A stretch of DNA of 64,000 bases from Candidatus Tyloplasma litorale. GTDB taxonomy: Bacteria; Bacillota_I; Bacilli_A; Mycoplasmatales; Hepatoplasmataceae. The stretch is taken from NCBI GenBank assembly GCA_027943885.1, contig AP027078.1, positions 124,001 to 188,000 on the forward strand, written 5' to 3'. The notes under the pieces were generated by a model. It was given only the letters and a program-made list of their open reading frames with translations. It was not told the origin of the DNA and did not search any database. Shown piece by piece: positions 7,264 to 64,000 of the stretch; positions within the stretch are counted from its first letter, which is position 1; each line of letters begins with the position of its first letter. A program made the position numbers and the translations under genes.

Positions 7264-9807
7264 ATGGAAAATAATAAATACAATCCATCAATTTTCGAGA
7301 AGGAAATTCAAAAATTTTGAAAAGAAAATAATTATTTTAAAGCAAAAAATAAAGGTAAAAAATCATTTTCAATTATAATGCCTCCACCAAATGTAACTGG
7401 TAAATTACATTTGGGTCATGCTTGGGATTCATATTATCCTGATATGTTAATTAGATATAAACAACTAAATGATTTTGATTCTGTTTGATATCCAGGTATG
7501 GATCATGCAGGCATTGCAACACAAGCAAAAGTTGAGCAAAAAATATTTTTTGAAGAAGGCAAAAATAGATTTGATTTAGGTAGAGAAGAATTTATAAAAA
7601 AAGTTTTTTCTTGAAAAGATTTTTATTCTGAAAATATTCAAAAGCAATGAAATAAATTAGGTATTGCAGCAGATTTTGATAAAATGAAATTTACCTTGGA
7701 TAAAGATGTTAATGACAAAGTTCTTGATGTTTTTATTGAACTTTATAATAAAAAATTAATTTATAAAGGAAAAAGATTAATTAATTGAGATTGCAAATTA
7801 ATGACTGCAATTTCAAATATCGAAATTAAACATGAAATAAAAGAATCTAAAATTTATAATATTAAATACTTTTTTGAAAATTCTGATGATTTTGTTATTG
7901 TTTCAACAACTAGACCAGAAACAATGTTTGCTGATGTTGCACTATTTGTTAATCCCAATGATCCTAGATATCAAAATAAAATAGGAAAAATAGTGATAAA
8001 TCCAGCTAATAATGAAAAGCTTAAAATAATGGCAGACAAATATGTTGATATTGAATTTGGAACTGGTGTTTTAAAAGTTACTCCTGGTCATGATTTTAAT
8101 GATTATAATTTATCTAAAAAATATAATTTAAAAATAATTAATATTTTAAATAAAAATGGAACATTAAATGAATTGTGTGGAAAGTTTTCTGGAATGGAAA
8201 TTTTAGAAGCGAGAAAAAAATTTGTTTCTTTTTTAAATAATAAAAATTTTATTGAATCAATTAATGATCATAAAAAATCCATTGGTATTTCAGAAAGATC
8301 TGGAGCAATAATTGAACCTATGATTTCAGAACAGTGATTTTTAAATTCTTCAAATTTAGCAAAAAAATCAAAAAATGAACAAAATAACCAAACTAAAAAA
8401 GTTGATTTTTATCCTAAAAGATTTGAAAATATATACTTATCATGATTGGAAACAATGGAGGATTGATGTATTTCGAGACAACTTTGATGAGGTCATCGAA
8501 TTCCTGCATGATATAAAAATGGAAAAATTTTAGTTCAAAAAAATTCCCCAGGAAAAGATTGAAAGCAAGATGAAGATGTATTAGACACTTGATTTTCTTC
8601 AGCTCTTTGACCTTGAATATTAAAAGATGAAAAACTTATAAAAAAATCTGAAAATCCAAATTACTTGTCTGATTTATTATTTACAGGTTATGACATAATA
8701 TTATTTTGAGTATCAAGAATGATTTATCAATCATTGGAAATAGATGGAAGACCACCTTTTAAAAAGGCTATAATTCATGGATTAATAAGAGATAAAAAAG
8801 GGCAAAAAATGTCTAAATCATTAAATAATGGTATAGATCCTATGGAGGTTATTTCTAAATGGGGTTCAGATTCTCTTAGATCCTTTTTATTAGGTAATTC
8901 AACACCTGGCCAAGATATAAAATACAATGAAAGCAAAATTGAATCTGCTTGAAATTTAAATAATAAATTGTATAATTCAAAAAATTTATTATTAAAGTTA
9001 TCAAAAAATATAAAGTTAAAAAGATTAGATTTGAATAAAATGAAATTATCAAAAATTGATGAATATATTTTATTTAGAATAGAAAATTTTAAAAAAATAC
9101 TCCAAAAGAACATTGAAATTTATAATTTAACTATTATTTTTAATGAAATGAATAAATTAATTTTTGATGATTTTGCAAATAATTATTTAGAATTTGTTAA
9201 ACAAGAAAAAAATAATAATGCACAAATTGAAAATTCTATAAATATATTTTTAAATCTTTTAATTATTATTCATCCTTTAATACCTTTTGTAACTGAAAAA
9301 ATTTATCAAGAGTTAAGTAAAAGAATAAAAACAAAAAAATCTATTTTATTAGAAAGATATAAAAAAATTGATATAGAAGAAAAAGAAGATTCTTTATTTT
9401 TATTATCAGTGTTGAAAGTAGCAAGAAAAATTAATTCTCAACCCAATTTTGTAAAAAATGATTATTGTGAAATTTTTATTGAAACAGAAAAAAATTATGA
9501 TGTTAAATGATTAAATAAATATCTTTTTTATTTAAATGCTGGTGTTAATAAAACAAAATTAAAAGAATATTTTGAAATAGATATTTTTCCAGGTGTTGGA
9601 ATAATATATTCTACATATAATAATGCTAAAAATAAATCAATTGATTTGTTAAAACAAAATATTTCTAAAAAAATTAATTTTGAATTAAAAAGAGCTAATA
9701 GCATTTTACAAAATAAGAAATTTGTTGAAAATGCAAATCCTGAATTAATACAAAAAGAAAAAGAAAAATTAATATTTTATAATGAATCATTAAATTTAAT
9801 TAAATAA
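7264..9807 (+). CDS. valS: Valyl-tRNA synthetase
   Basis: Class I synthetase of 847 aa charging tRNA-Val. HIGH motif is in [15 protein letters not shown] (about residue 40) and KMSKS in [14 protein letters not shown] (about residue 515). Unlike the LeuRS at the end of the window, it keeps the CP1 editing domain: [11 protein letters not shown] and [16 protein letters not shown] hold the conserved residues for hydrolysing Thr-tRNA-Val. The C-terminal anticodon-binding domain and a charged tail are present. Many Trp codons are TGA. Transcribed alone, with its own promoter and terminator. Confidence 0.97.
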
Positions 9808-23551: not shown

Positions 23552-25081
<1,530 letters not shown>

Positions 25082-25356
25082 ATGGAAGGTCACTTATGTG
25101 ACAATAAACGATTTTTCTGCATAAGCGCAGTATAGGTTCTATTTAGCTTTGAGAGAATTATTTCTCTCACACACCTGTTAAGGTGTGAGATAGCTCTTTG
25201 AAAACTAGATACATCCTTAAAAAATATATTATAAATCTAAGATAATTAGGATATTTTTTAAATTGATATTGTTCATTTTATCAATGAACAATACTCAAGT
25301 TTATTATTTGCGTTGTACTTTAATCTAAAGTACAATTCGATACACACGTAACTTAT
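25082..25356 (+). other. 16S-23S internal spacer, operon 1
   Basis: About 275 bp without tRNA genes. It contains hairpins (for example GAGAGAATTATTTCTCTC and ACACCTGTTAAGGTGT around 25151-25187) and a second boxA-like GCTCTTTGAAAACT near 25193-25206, then an inverted repeat TTGTTCATTTTATCAATGAACAA near 25269. Confidence 0.85.
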
Positions 25357-28270
<2,914 letters not shown>

Positions 28271-28357
28271 GTGTAGTCCTAATTAACTTAGATTGGATTG
28301 GATGTATTTAGTTTTCAAAGTGTTATCTGAAAACAATATAACAAATATAAAAAAAGT

Positions 28358-28391
28358 ACCGACAAATATATTCTTCAATATATTTGTCGGT
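28358..28391 (+). other. Hairpin overlapping the 5' end of 5S rRNA, operon 1
   Basis: 15-bp perfect stem: left arm 28358-28372, loop CTTC, right arm 28377-28391. The last bases of the right arm, GTCGGT, are also the 5' strand of the 5S terminal helix, so the two structures exclude each other. The same hairpin occurs at 33755-33788. Confidence 0.75.
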
Positions 28392-28491
28392 GGCGATACG
28401 TGTAGGGGTTCACCTGATCCCATCCCGAACTCAGAAGTTAAGACTTACACGGCCGAAGGTAGTAGCAATGCGAGAATAGGTGACCGCCGAC
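28386..28491 (+). rRNA. rrf: 5S ribosomal RNA, operon 1
   Basis: About 106 nt, closed by GTCGGTGGCG/GACCGCCGAC, with the conserved CCATCCCGAACTCAGAAGTTAAG core. Its 5' strand also pairs with the sequence upstream (see the hairpin at 28358-28391). A 16-T tract follows directly, so the 5S terminal helix may itself serve as terminator stem. Confidence 0.94.
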
Positions 28492-28507
28492 TTTTTTTTT
28501 TTTTTTT
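28492..28507 (+). terminator. Poly-T end of rRNA operon 1
   Basis: Sixteen Ts directly after the 5S gene; operon 2 has fifteen. Termination probably uses the 5S terminal stem. Confidence 0.65.
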
Positions 28508-28517
28508 AATTTTAAAA

Positions 28518-28698
28518 GATGTTTTTTTATTTTTATAAAAGCAAATTTTAAAATAATTTATATGTATAATTAATTAGTTATTTAATGATCAATTTTATTT
28601 AATTCGAAATATAAAATTCATATTAATAAATGAATTGACAATAAATAATTTTTTAAAAATAATACTAAAAAAATATTTTATTTTTTTAAAAAATGTAT
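28518..28698 (+). other. Spacer between the two rRNA operons
   Basis: 181 bp of AT-rich DNA with no gene. It contains a second promoter-like core, TATAATTAATTAG at 28565-28577, resembling the main rRNA -10 region, and a consensus TTGACA at 28634-28639 with a poor -10 candidate downstream. These suggest extra promoters for operon 2. Confidence 0.6.
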
Positions 28699-28946
28699 TA
28701 TAATTAATTAGGTGCTTTGGAAAGCATATAAAATAAAAGAGGATTAAAGCAAAAGAAATTTTGCTTCATATTTTTTTAACCTATATCCAACAAGGCACCA
28801 GCTTAATAGCTCTTTGAAAACTAAATAGAACCATCAATTCTTAATTGAGTTTAAGAATGAACATTTTTTACATTTTAACCAAGTAAAAAATAAATACAAT
28901 ATTATTTTGAGCAATAACAAATACTCATAAATAATTTAATTATTAT
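28699..28946 (+). promoter_or_regulatory. rRNA promoter and leader, operon 2
   Basis: -10 box TATAAT at 28699-28704, then a leader nearly identical to that of operon 1, with the same hairpins and boxA. The DNA upstream of the -10 box differs completely from operon 1, so the two promoters may have different strength. Confidence 0.75.
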
Positions 28947-30478
<1,532 letters not shown>

Positions 30479-30752
30479 ATGGAAGGTCACTTATGTGACA
30501 ATAAACGATTTTTCTGCATAAGCGCAGATAGGTTCTATTTAGCTTTGAGAGAATTATTTCTCTCACACACCTGTTAAGGTGTGAGATAGCTCTTTGAAAA
30601 CTAGATACATCCTTAAAAAATATATTATAAATCTAAGATAATTAGGATATTTTTTAAATTGATATTGTTCATTTTATCAATGAACAATACTCAAGTTTAT
30701 TATTTGCGTTGTACTTTAATCTAAAGTACAATTCGATACACACGTAACTTAT
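30479..30752 (+). other. 16S-23S internal spacer, operon 2
   Basis: Same structure as in operon 1: no tRNA, boxA-like element, small hairpins; 1 nt shorter (GCGCAGATAGG against GCGCAGTATAGG). Confidence 0.85.
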
Positions 30753-33667
<2,915 letters not shown>

Positions 33668-33782
33668 GTGTAGTCCTAATTAACTTAGATTGGATTGGAT
33701 GTATTTAGTTTTCAAAGTGTTATCTGAAAACAATATAACAAATATAAAAAAAGTACCGACAAATATATTCTTCAATATATTT

Positions 33783-33888
33783 GTCGGTGGCGATACGTGT
33801 AGGGGTTCACCTGATTCCATCCCGAACTCAGAAGTTAAGACTTACACGGCCGAAGGTAGTAGCAATGCGAGAATAGGTGACCGCCGAC
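33783..33888 (+). rRNA. rrf: 5S ribosomal RNA, operon 2
   Basis: Second 5S gene, one base different from copy 1 (CCTGATTCCATCCC against CCTGATCCCATCCC). Preceded by the same mutually exclusive hairpin (33755-33788) and followed by 15 Ts. Confidence 0.94.
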
Positions 33889-33917
33889 TTTTTTTTTTTT
33901 TTTAATTTTAAAATTCT

Positions 33918-61818: not shown

Positions 61819-63720
61819 ATGAGTTACAATCATTTAAAAATAGAAAAAAAATGACAAAAAATTTGAAGGAATAATAAAACTTTCAAAACAAATATTGATT
61901 CAAATAAACCTAAATTTTATGCCTTAGATATGTTTCCTTATCCTTCAGGAGCAGGCTTACATGTTGGACATCCAGAAGGGTATACTGCCACAGATATTAT
62001 TTCAAGAATGAAAAAAATGCAAGGTTATGAAGTATTACATCCAATGGGTTGAGATGCTTTTGGATTACCTGCAGAACAATATGCAATTCAAACAGGTAAT
62101 TCACCTGCAGAATTTACTAATAAAAATATTGAGGTTTTTAGAAAACAATTAAATTCCTTAGGTTTTTCTTTTGATTGGGAACGTGAAGTTAAAACAACTG
62201 ATCCTGAGTATTTTAAAAATACTCAATGAATTTTTGCTCAGTTATTTAAGCATAATTTAGCTGAAATTATGGAAGTTGAAGTTAATTGATCTCCTTCTTT
62301 AAATACTGTTTTAGCCAATGAAGAGGTATTAAATGATGAAAATGGTAATTTAGTTGCTGAAAGAGATGGTCTTCCAGTTCAAAAAAAACTTATGAAACAA
62401 TGAGTTTTAAAAATTACTAAATATGCTCAAAAATTATTTGATGGATTACAAGATTTGGATTGACCTGAGTCTGTTAAAAAATTACAAAAAAATTGATTTT
62501 TTGAACAAGATGATAATGGAGAACACACTGATAAACTTCACATTAGAGATTGAATTTTCGCAAGACAAAGATATTGAGGAGAACCTTTTCCAATTATTCA
62601 TTTAGAAAATGGAGAAATATATTTAATTCCAGAAACAGAATATCCTGTGGAATTACCTAAATTACAAAATTATGAATTTACTCAAGATGGAGAACCTGCC
62701 TTAGGTAAGGCTAAAAATTGAGTTGAGGTTATTGTTAAGGGTCAAAAGGGGAAAAGAGATTTAAATACAATGCCACAATGAGCAGGTTCTAATTGATATT
62801 ATATTGGTTATGTTCTTAAAGAGGGTAAAAAGTATTTGAGTTTGGATGATCCAAAAGCTAAAGAAAGATTAGATAAATGATTACCTGTGGATTTATATAT
62901 AGGTGGTCAAGAACATGCTGTTCTTCATTTAATTTATGCTAGATTTTGACATATGTTTTTAAATGAAATTGGAATTACTAATGTTAAGGAACCATTTCAA
63001 AAATTATTTAATCAAGGAATGATTTTAGGTCCAGATGGTTCTAAAATGTCCAAATCAAAAGGTAATGTAATTAATCCTAATGAAATAATCGAAAAACATG
63101 GTGCTGATACTCTTAGATTGTATGAAATGTTTATGGGTGCTTTAGATGATGATAAACCATGATCTGAAGAAGGATTGCAAGCTTCAAGAAATTGATTAAA
63201 TAGAGTTTATAGATTTTATACTGAATTTATTAAATTTGGTACACCTTCAAATAATGTTAAAAATCAATTTAACAAAGTTTTAAAAGAAGTCACTGCTTTA
63301 TATGAAAATTTAAAATTTAATGTTGCTATTTCAAAAATGATGGTTTTCATTAATGAAATTTATAAAGATACAACTTTAAGTAAAGAAATAGCTATTGGAT
63401 TCTTACAATTATTATCATGTATTTGCCCACATATTGCTGAAGAATTACATTCACAAATAGTTAATAAAAATGAATCATTTTTTGATTTAAAATGACCTAT
63501 TGAAATTGAAGCAGAAAATATTCAAGAAGATTGAATTATTGTTATTCAAACAAATGGTAAATTAAGAGCAGAAATTAAAAATCCCAATTTATCATCAAAT
63601 CCTTCTGAAGAAGAATTAAAGAAATTTGTTATTAAAAATATACCAAATCATATTGATAAAATAAAAAAAATAAAAAAAATAATTTTTATAAAAAATAAAA
63701 TTATTAATGTTGTAATTTAG
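61819..63720 (+). CDS. leuS: Leucyl-tRNA synthetase lacking the CP1 editing domain
   Basis: 633 aa, against about 800-860 for most bacteria. Catalytic motifs are intact: [20 protein letters not shown] (HIGH variant, about residue 38) and [14 protein letters not shown] (KMSKS, about 413). The CP1 editing domain should lie between [14 protein letters not shown] and the RDWIFARQRYWGEPFPI motif; here only about 14 residues ([15 protein letters not shown]) join them, so the threonine-rich region and the editing Asp are missing. The anticodon-binding domain and C-terminal domain remain. The same loss is known in Mycoplasma mobile. Mischarging by norvaline, isoleucine or related amino acids would be uncorrected (inference). 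Many Trp codons are TGA. Confidence 0.96.
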
Positions 63721-63724
63721 TTTT

Positions 63725-64000
63725 ATGGAATTAAAAAGATTTCAATTTATAGAAGTGAAAGAACATGAAACATATTTAAGTTATAATGGTTCAGAATTAA
63801 AAAATTCTAGACCTTATTTGGTTATTAATCCATCGATTTCTTCTAAATATTTTTTATGTTGTCCTGTCACTGATATAGAAAATTCAAAAAAACAAAATAA
63901 AAAAACAGAAAGTTATTGATTAAAATATAATTTTAGAAAACCTTCTTATATCAAAATGAATATTTTAGTTACTCTTCCTAAGGAAATGATTCATAGAGAA
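63725..64000 (+). CDS. Hypothetical protein, possibly PemK/MazF-like, cut by window end
   Basis: The first 92 codons are visible, from the ATG at 63725, 4 nt after the leuS stop. The sequence RPYLVINPSISSKYFLCCPVTD resembles the start of the PemK/MazF-type barrel (RP.lVI......vi.cp.T), followed by a Lys-rich loop and a beta-rich ILVTLPKEMIHRE. No antitoxin gene lies upstream. The family call is weak and needs the rest of the gene. Confidence 0.45.

Follow-up and report, generated by a model that had tools for sequence, protein, structure and literature searches.

A leucyl-tRNA synthetase without the CP1 editing domain in Candidatus Tyloplasma litorale and its relatives

The leuS gene and its product

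We analysed a window of 64,000 nucleotides from the genome of Candidatus Tyloplasma litorale (contig AP027078.1, positions 124,001 to 188,000), described as a symbiont of the isopod Tylos granuliferus (PMC10928387). The leuS gene, its motifs and the ValRS gene used for comparison all lie on the forward strand. An open reading frame at 61819..63720, identified as leuS by profile matches and alignment, encodes a leucyl-tRNA synthetase (LeuRS) of 633 amino acids without the CP1 editing domain. The frame is intact, starting with ATG and read in genetic code 4, with 19 TGA codons translated as Trp. The protein scored 734 bits with the TIGR00396 leuS_bact profile (curated cut-off 548.4), Pfam profiles matched its class I core and anticodon domain, and a Pfam search of the protein returned no PF13603 editing domain. 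The catalytic motifs, the anticodon domain and the C-terminal domain are retained; HVGH, the HIGH-type motif of the synthetic site (residues 48-51; 61960..61971), and KMSKS (residues 409-413; 63043..63057) both fall in invariant alignment columns. At the site occupied by CP1 in relatives, alignment and structural modelling place a linker of 16 residues (residues 227-242; 62497..62544), which lies in the alignment between QKNW and RDWIFARQRYWGE. It is followed by Ala248 in FARQRYWG (62560..62562), at a position that is mostly Ser or Ala in the aligned LeuRS proteins. The leucine-specific (LS) insertion before KMSKS is absent from both sequence and alignment, as it is from the LeuRS of Mycoplasma mobile and Bacillus subtilis according to PMC5059758. 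The leuS product was the sole full-length LeuRS match in the genome, the six other matches scoring 47.5 bits or less.

An earlier note on this window had proposed that CP1 is missing from the LeuRS, and the absence of PF13603, the 16-residue linker and an end-to-end alignment with the M. mobile enzyme (PDB 3ziu) all bear this out. The remaining stub is short, as had been claimed, though it measures 16 residues and not about 14. The expected size of CP1, put there at about 200 residues, was 176-190 in 20 of 30 CP1-bearing rows and 118-221 over all 30.

An AlphaFold2 model of the protein, built from 22 sequences, had a pLDDT of 84.6 and a pTM of 0.82. The linker was modelled as a short beta hairpin with strands at 228-230 and 236-240, at low confidence (about 50 at residues 231-240). 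The best Foldseek matches of the model were 3ziu_A (E 3.8e-67) and 3ziu_B (E 8.9e-65), and VIA-align of the model against 3ziu_B gave a Z of 44.6 and an rmsd of 2.3 over 558 residues. 3ziu, the nearest relative of solved structure and the best match by sequence as well as by fold, was also matched by phmmer in one full-length stretch (710 bits), and the likeness to M. mobile put forward in the earlier note stands. Both enzymes lack CP1 and the LS insertion, possess a full C-terminal domain and share the same fold. The M. mobile enzyme differs in having a linker of 14 residues, Lys at the position of Tyloplasma His241 and Gly at that of Phe228; it belongs to the LeuRS clade of another family and shares 55.7% identity with the Tyloplasma protein over 596 residues. 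LeuRS of the CP1-bearing B. subtilis and Escherichia coli types have in common with the Tyloplasma enzyme the synthetic core, the anticodon and C-terminal domains and the HIGH and KMSKS motifs, whereas the latter lacks CP1 and departs from them at three hinge residues (Gly228, Lys/Arg241 and Ser248 in the CP1-bearing types). In kind, the Tyloplasma protein belongs with the CP1-less LeuRS of M. mobile. The absence of CP1 from M. mobile LeuRS was reportedly described by Li et al. in 2011, and Boniecki and Martinis are said to have treated that enzyme as the unique natural LeuRS without CP1.

Elsewhere in the window, the next open reading frame begins 4 bases past leuS, at 63725-64000 (MELKRFQFIEVKEHETYLSYNGSELKNSRPYLVINPS...), and is truncated where the window stops. 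Two complete 16S-23S-5S rRNA operons lie in tandem at 23553-33889; the table of PMC10928387 gives three rRNA genes for each of four Hepatoplasma genomes.

CP1 loss in the Hepatoplasmataceae and across the order

In the genome collection used, Tyloplasma (G000) is grouped with Hepatoplasma (g4) in the family Hepatoplasmataceae (f1), and the LeuRS tree agrees; a tree in PMC13264560, called preliminary by its authors, places it with the Mycoplasmataceae. LeuRS was present in nine of the ten Hepatoplasmataceae genomes, no match being found in G008, which is 78% complete. Eight of the nine were CP1-less, with linkers of 13-17 residues; among them are H. crinochetorum (G003) and H. scabrum (G005), with the same loss and in the same LeuRS clade as Tyloplasma. 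The ninth, from G002, a genome that is 75% complete, retains a shortened and eroded CP1 with an insert of 167 residues. Its motif TTMPEY stands in place of TTRx(D/E)T in G135, G139, G167 and G269, and it has GEESLLGVPLDDNRD where G135, G167 and G269 have (G/A)TG(A/S)xM(A/S)VPxHDxRD. With PF13603, G002 scored 86.1 bits, and three relatives with an intact domain scored 218.9, 196.6 and 194.9.

The Tyloplasma genome is metagenome-assembled, and the window alone would be compatible with some 520 bases having dropped out of leuS through an error of assembly or sequencing, a possibility that the earlier note had itself raised. No sign of it was seen. The reading frame is kept in Tyloplasma, and CP1 is gone at the same place in eight family genomes whose linker sequences differ from one another; because eight of the nine family genomes with a LeuRS share the absence, it is not an assembly gap. 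One of the eight is H. crinochetorum Av, whose assembly errors were corrected by PCR and Sanger sequencing (PMC3942034). The Tyloplasma genome itself comprises 615,622 bases in one contig, and the table of PMC10928387 lists it as circular, with coverage of 223x (ONT) and 527x (Illumina), beside genomes of 657,101 (H. crinochetorum Av) and 606,194 (H. scabrum). The M. mobile enzyme, moreover, is known to be CP1-less from a crystal structure. A deletion artefact is scarcely credible on this evidence.

Across the order, a LeuRS match (E<=1e-40) was obtained in 313 of 320 genomes, and 29 of the 313 were CP1-less, eight in the Hepatoplasmataceae and 21 in the family f6. The order-wide call of CP1-less denotes one full-length piece matching the CP1-less query, and alignment confirmed short linkers in all 29. 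CP1 state was read from alignment in 59 of the 313 genomes (50 of them in one alignment), 29 without and 30 with CP1; for the other 254 it was judged solely from how large the best match was. Inserts of 190 residues were found in the CP1-bearing LeuRS of G135, G061 and G167 by the QKNW measure used for Tyloplasma. Such lengths depend on the pattern, and the value of 45 for the linker of L025 is an artefact, its segment being as long as those of its neighbours in the alignment. Over all genes of the 21 CP1-less f6 genomes taken together, no PF13603 match exceeded 34.4 bits, and G137 gave no match; four CP1-bearing controls gave 135-219 bits.

The best LeuRS match was weak (E 1e-41 to 1e-53) in the genus g16 and most of g20. 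Five LeuRS from these two genera (L124, L125, L129, L130 and L133) are divergent, with 34-43% identity to the query, frames of 778-787 amino acids and the motif GISRQRxWG; this type is unlike that in the rest of the order and could be a replacement by transfer. The weak matches in most of g20 suggest that the same divergent type is found there.

Among the titles and abstract openings listed, there was no report of CP1 loss in the Hepatoplasmataceae or of recurrent CP1 loss. Neither 'leucyl' nor 'tRNA synthetase' occurs in the main texts of PMC10928387 and PMC3942034. In a scan of genome contigs that may omit records close to the window, none of the 80 LeuRS loci kept was titled Hepatoplasma or Tyloplasma, and one was titled Malacoplasma. 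A 16S search of plasmid records had Mesomycoplasma hyorhinis (79.9%) as the top match among 570.

Phylogeny of the LeuRS core and the CP1 hinge

A tree of the LeuRS core, with CP1 removed, was built from 58 rows; the five divergent LeuRS of g16 and g20 and the outgroup sequence L035, in which the pattern was not found, were left out of the trees. All LeuRS of the Hepatoplasmataceae grouped together, with the CP1-bearing G002 as sister to the eight CP1-less sequences (99/94*, 99/92*). The tree requires at least five changes of CP1 state, gains and losses being counted alike; three changes of the CP1-less label within f6 are required even if only the starred branches are considered. Constraining the 29 CP1-less rows, which do not include 3ziu, to one clade lowered the log-likelihood by 183.17 and was rejected (p-AU 9.66e-11). 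The M. mobile LeuRS fell among f6 rows, apart from the Hepatoplasmataceae (100/99*). These topologies indicate that CP1 was lost at least twice in the order and, because a single CP1-less clade is rejected, that the losses in Tyloplasma and M. mobile are separate. Descent of the Tyloplasma enzyme from the loss event of M. mobile was rejected: the CP1-less rows do not form one clade, and the two enzymes belong to different families' LeuRS groups.

The common architecture of the two enzymes and their 55.7% identity might also be explained if a mycoplasma resembling M. mobile had donated a CP1-less gene to Tyloplasma by horizontal transfer. The Tyloplasma LeuRS sits, however, with all others of its family, the CP1-bearing G002 included (99/94*; 100/99*), and this placement, together with the rejection of a single CP1-less clade, makes transfer very improbable.

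The number of losses within f6 is harder to read. The LeuRS of G139 (L115, C5:700-4000) bears a partly eroded CP1 (VPTKDKKD) and is nested in the genus g23, in which the other 11 LeuRS rows are CP1-less. In half trees both core halves of this protein nest in g23, and its CP1 is closest, at 43.8%, to the f6 CP1 of G035, so it is not obviously foreign. Either parallel losses in g23 or a regain of CP1 by recombination would account for this arrangement. The linker is 14 residues long in nearly all g23 rows and in all g17 rows, which would fit one older loss. Grouping of g21 with G135 reached 98/94* in the core tree and 82 in the C-half tree, was not drawn in the tree with 3ziu, and was absent from the N-half tree, where G135 is placed elsewhere, away from g21. 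Given this instability, independence of the losses is argued here from the Hepatoplasmataceae versus f6.

Residues flanking the linker were compared between 30 CP1-less and 46 CP1-bearing LeuRS, the same five divergent sequences being omitted. Gly occupies position 228 in 45 of the 46 CP1-bearing proteins; the Hepatoplasmataceae have Tyr or Phe there, and g10, g11, g19 and g22 have other residues. At position 241, 43 of the 46 carry Lys or Arg. His stands there in the Hepatoplasmataceae, in g10, g11, g17, g19 and g22 and in the majority of g23, whereas g21 and M. mobile keep Lys241. This position aligns with Arg418 of Thermus thermophilus LeuRS (Arg416 in E. coli), which we take to be part of the CP1 hinge. 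At position 248, Ser predominates among the CP1-bearing sequences (42 of 46, with Ala in two, G139 and G014), and Ala among the CP1-less ones (26 of 30: the Hepatoplasmataceae, g17, g21, g23 and M. mobile); the CP1-less g10, g11, g19 and g22 keep Ser248. An independent-pairs test of Ala248 drew on only 4-5 pairs (four on starred branches), too few for significance. In those four, Ala248 accompanied CP1 loss in an average of 2.4 pairs, and no pair showed the opposite. This pattern fits the decay or retuning of a hinge that would have nothing left to carry.

Editing domains and fidelity at leucine codons

Trans-editing proteins such as YbaK, AlaX and DTD are known for other amino acids, and by analogy a free-standing CP1-like or other deacylase might edit in trans and keep fidelity at Leu codons normal in Tyloplasma. 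We searched for such genes with two profiles, PF13603 and PF04073 (YbaK/ProX). PF13603 occurred in the Tyloplasma genome at two places, inside ValRS and inside IleRS, and PF04073 passed the cut-off in none of the ten Hepatoplasmataceae genomes (weak matches in G003, G005 and G007), while 12 of 14 controls matched. With these two profiles, the genome yielded neither a separate gene like CP1 nor one of the YbaK type; the earlier note had looked to a separate CP1-like gene as evidence that would tell against its reading. According to PMC4014445, Mollicutes likewise have no homologues of YbaK, ProX or AlaX. On the evidence of these two profiles and that report, editing in trans is a poor candidate. 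The best explanation overall, and one we hold to be very likely, is that the only LeuRS found in Tyloplasma is a synthetic enzyme from which CP1 was removed by evolution and not by assembly.

The ValRS encoded in the window (847 amino acids; 7264..9807) keeps its editing domain (PF13603, 43.2 bits), in line with what the earlier note had said of it, and profile matches show that IleRS and AlaRS of Tyloplasma also retain theirs. The further claim that the loss is specific to LeuRS did not survive, as the same genome has a degenerate PheRS B3/4 domain and a ThrRS that has lost its editing domain. PF03483 (PheRS B3/4 editing) passed the cut-off in 13 of 14 controls and in none of the ten Hepatoplasmataceae genomes, four of which showed sub-threshold traces; Tyloplasma PheRS beta keeps a trace of 15 bits. 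PF07973 (tRNA_SAD) gave exactly one match in nine of the ten and none in G008, and in both genomes checked (G000 and G003) this match sits in AlaRS. ThrRS, of 537 amino acids in Tyloplasma and 413 in H. crinochetorum, comprises core and anticodon domains only in both; the first 130-140 residues of the Tyloplasma protein have no counterpart in four Hepatoplasma genomes. Judged by these profiles, the Leu, Phe and Thr editing domains are lost or degenerate in Tyloplasma, and those for Ile, Val and Ala kept. Among the 21 CP1-less f6 genomes, 19 had a B3_4 match (E<=0.05) and 19 at least two SAD matches, and G149 (70% complete) had no B3_4 match and one SAD. As these genomes mostly keep both domains, the triple loss marks the Hepatoplasmataceae and not CP1 loss generally. 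Loss or mutation of LeuRS, PheRS and ThrRS editing in several Mycoplasma species is reported in PMC4014445.

These searches also turned up several observations elsewhere in the order. B3/4 matches in frames of 167-170 amino acids (G107:C1:257144, G165:C1:590591, the latter with an internal TAA, and G186:C1:1015965) are possible free-standing B3/4 proteins. Seven genomes of g37 (G213-G219) have no tRNA_SAD match, and the LeuRS of G213, the only one examined in that genus, has a CP1 insert of 118 residues; this is perhaps another lineage losing proofreading. Eleven g13 genomes (G021-G023, G025-G031 and G033), each at least 94% complete, have no PheRS B3/4 match, and G019, G020, G024 and G032 of the same genus keep one. 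In H. scabrum, a weak ThrRS-profile match at G005:C1:64039-64437 lies in a frame open for 13,467 amino acids, either a giant open reading frame or an artefact.

As in M. mobile, the Tyloplasma LeuRS would charge tRNA-Leu without post-transfer proofreading. The earlier note's view that Leu codons are read with reduced fidelity is not supported as a fact, and the consequences may be small. Norvaline, described as the main physiological target of CP1 (PMC4932531), is reported to arise as a side product when leucine is made (PMC3834818). In M. mobile LeuRS, activation is 122-fold less efficient with norvaline than with leucine, a difference inside the 72- to 180-fold range given for four other LeuRS (PMC3834818). 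Since Tyloplasma is described as having no amino-acid biosynthesis (PMC10928387), the main source of norvaline would be absent and little should arise inside the symbiont. Isoleucine, which the earlier note had also suggested as an error at Leu codons, does not replace leucine in E. coli with editing-dead LeuRS (PMC4932531) and is not supported as the expected error; the threat is norvaline. The true error rate at Leu codons may thus be small, and the realised error would depend on norvaline in the host gut.

The loss of CP1 would then be tolerated because its main substrate, norvaline, comes from a pathway that is reportedly absent, and because the synthetic site alone would reject isoleucine. 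The likely path would lead from erosion of CP1, still visible in G002 and G139, through its removal to decay of the residues on which it swings, travelled separately by the Hepatoplasmataceae and by the family whose LeuRS clade holds M. mobile; in the former it goes along with PheRS and ThrRS whose editing domains are lost or degenerate. To our knowledge, leucine biosynthesis is probably absent from all Mycoplasmatales. Yet only 29 of 313 genomes are CP1-less, so a lack of norvaline would permit the loss without explaining it.

'Statistical proteomes' have been proposed for M. mobile. This proposal, and the fact that editing domains for three amino acids are lost or degenerate in one family, could be taken to mean that mistranslation is useful, selection having maintained the absence of Leu, Phe and Thr editing as a way of diversifying surface proteins. 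The pattern is also explained, however, by relaxed selection in a host-bound population of small size, and loss of an editing domain need not bring errors (PMC11415595); we think selection of this kind unlikely. Editing-deficient synthetases are recorded in host-restricted organisms, in microsporidia and in M. mobile PheRS (Melnikov et al. 2018, cited in PMC11415595), and Tyloplasma resembles these in having lost proofreading in a reduced, host-bound genome. It differs in that most of its family has the editing domains for three amino acids lost or degenerate, with an eroded CP1 remaining in G002.

A CP1-less LeuRS is already known in kind from M. mobile; what is new is its occurrence in the Hepatoplasmataceae and the evolutionary detail. 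A broader reading, possible but rather doubtful, is that Mollicute LeuRS lost CP1 repeatedly and in order, by erosion, excision to a short linker and convergent hinge change, and that the hinge changes (Gly228 lost, Lys/Arg241 to His and Ser248 to Ala, in lineage-specific mixtures) adjust the synthetic site in such a way that LeuRS remains sufficiently accurate without editing. With 29 of 313 genomes, more than one loss and eroded CP1 domains in G002 and G139, a single oddity becomes a set of comparable cases. These invite the questions of which conditions allow proofreading to disappear, whether the synthetic site makes up for it and what level of mistranslation a cell can bear. The Hepatoplasmataceae, with Leu, Phe and Thr editing domains lost or degenerate, are the strongest natural case found here and, if the broader reading is true, would live as a family in which three of the six synthetase editing domains examined are lost or degenerate.
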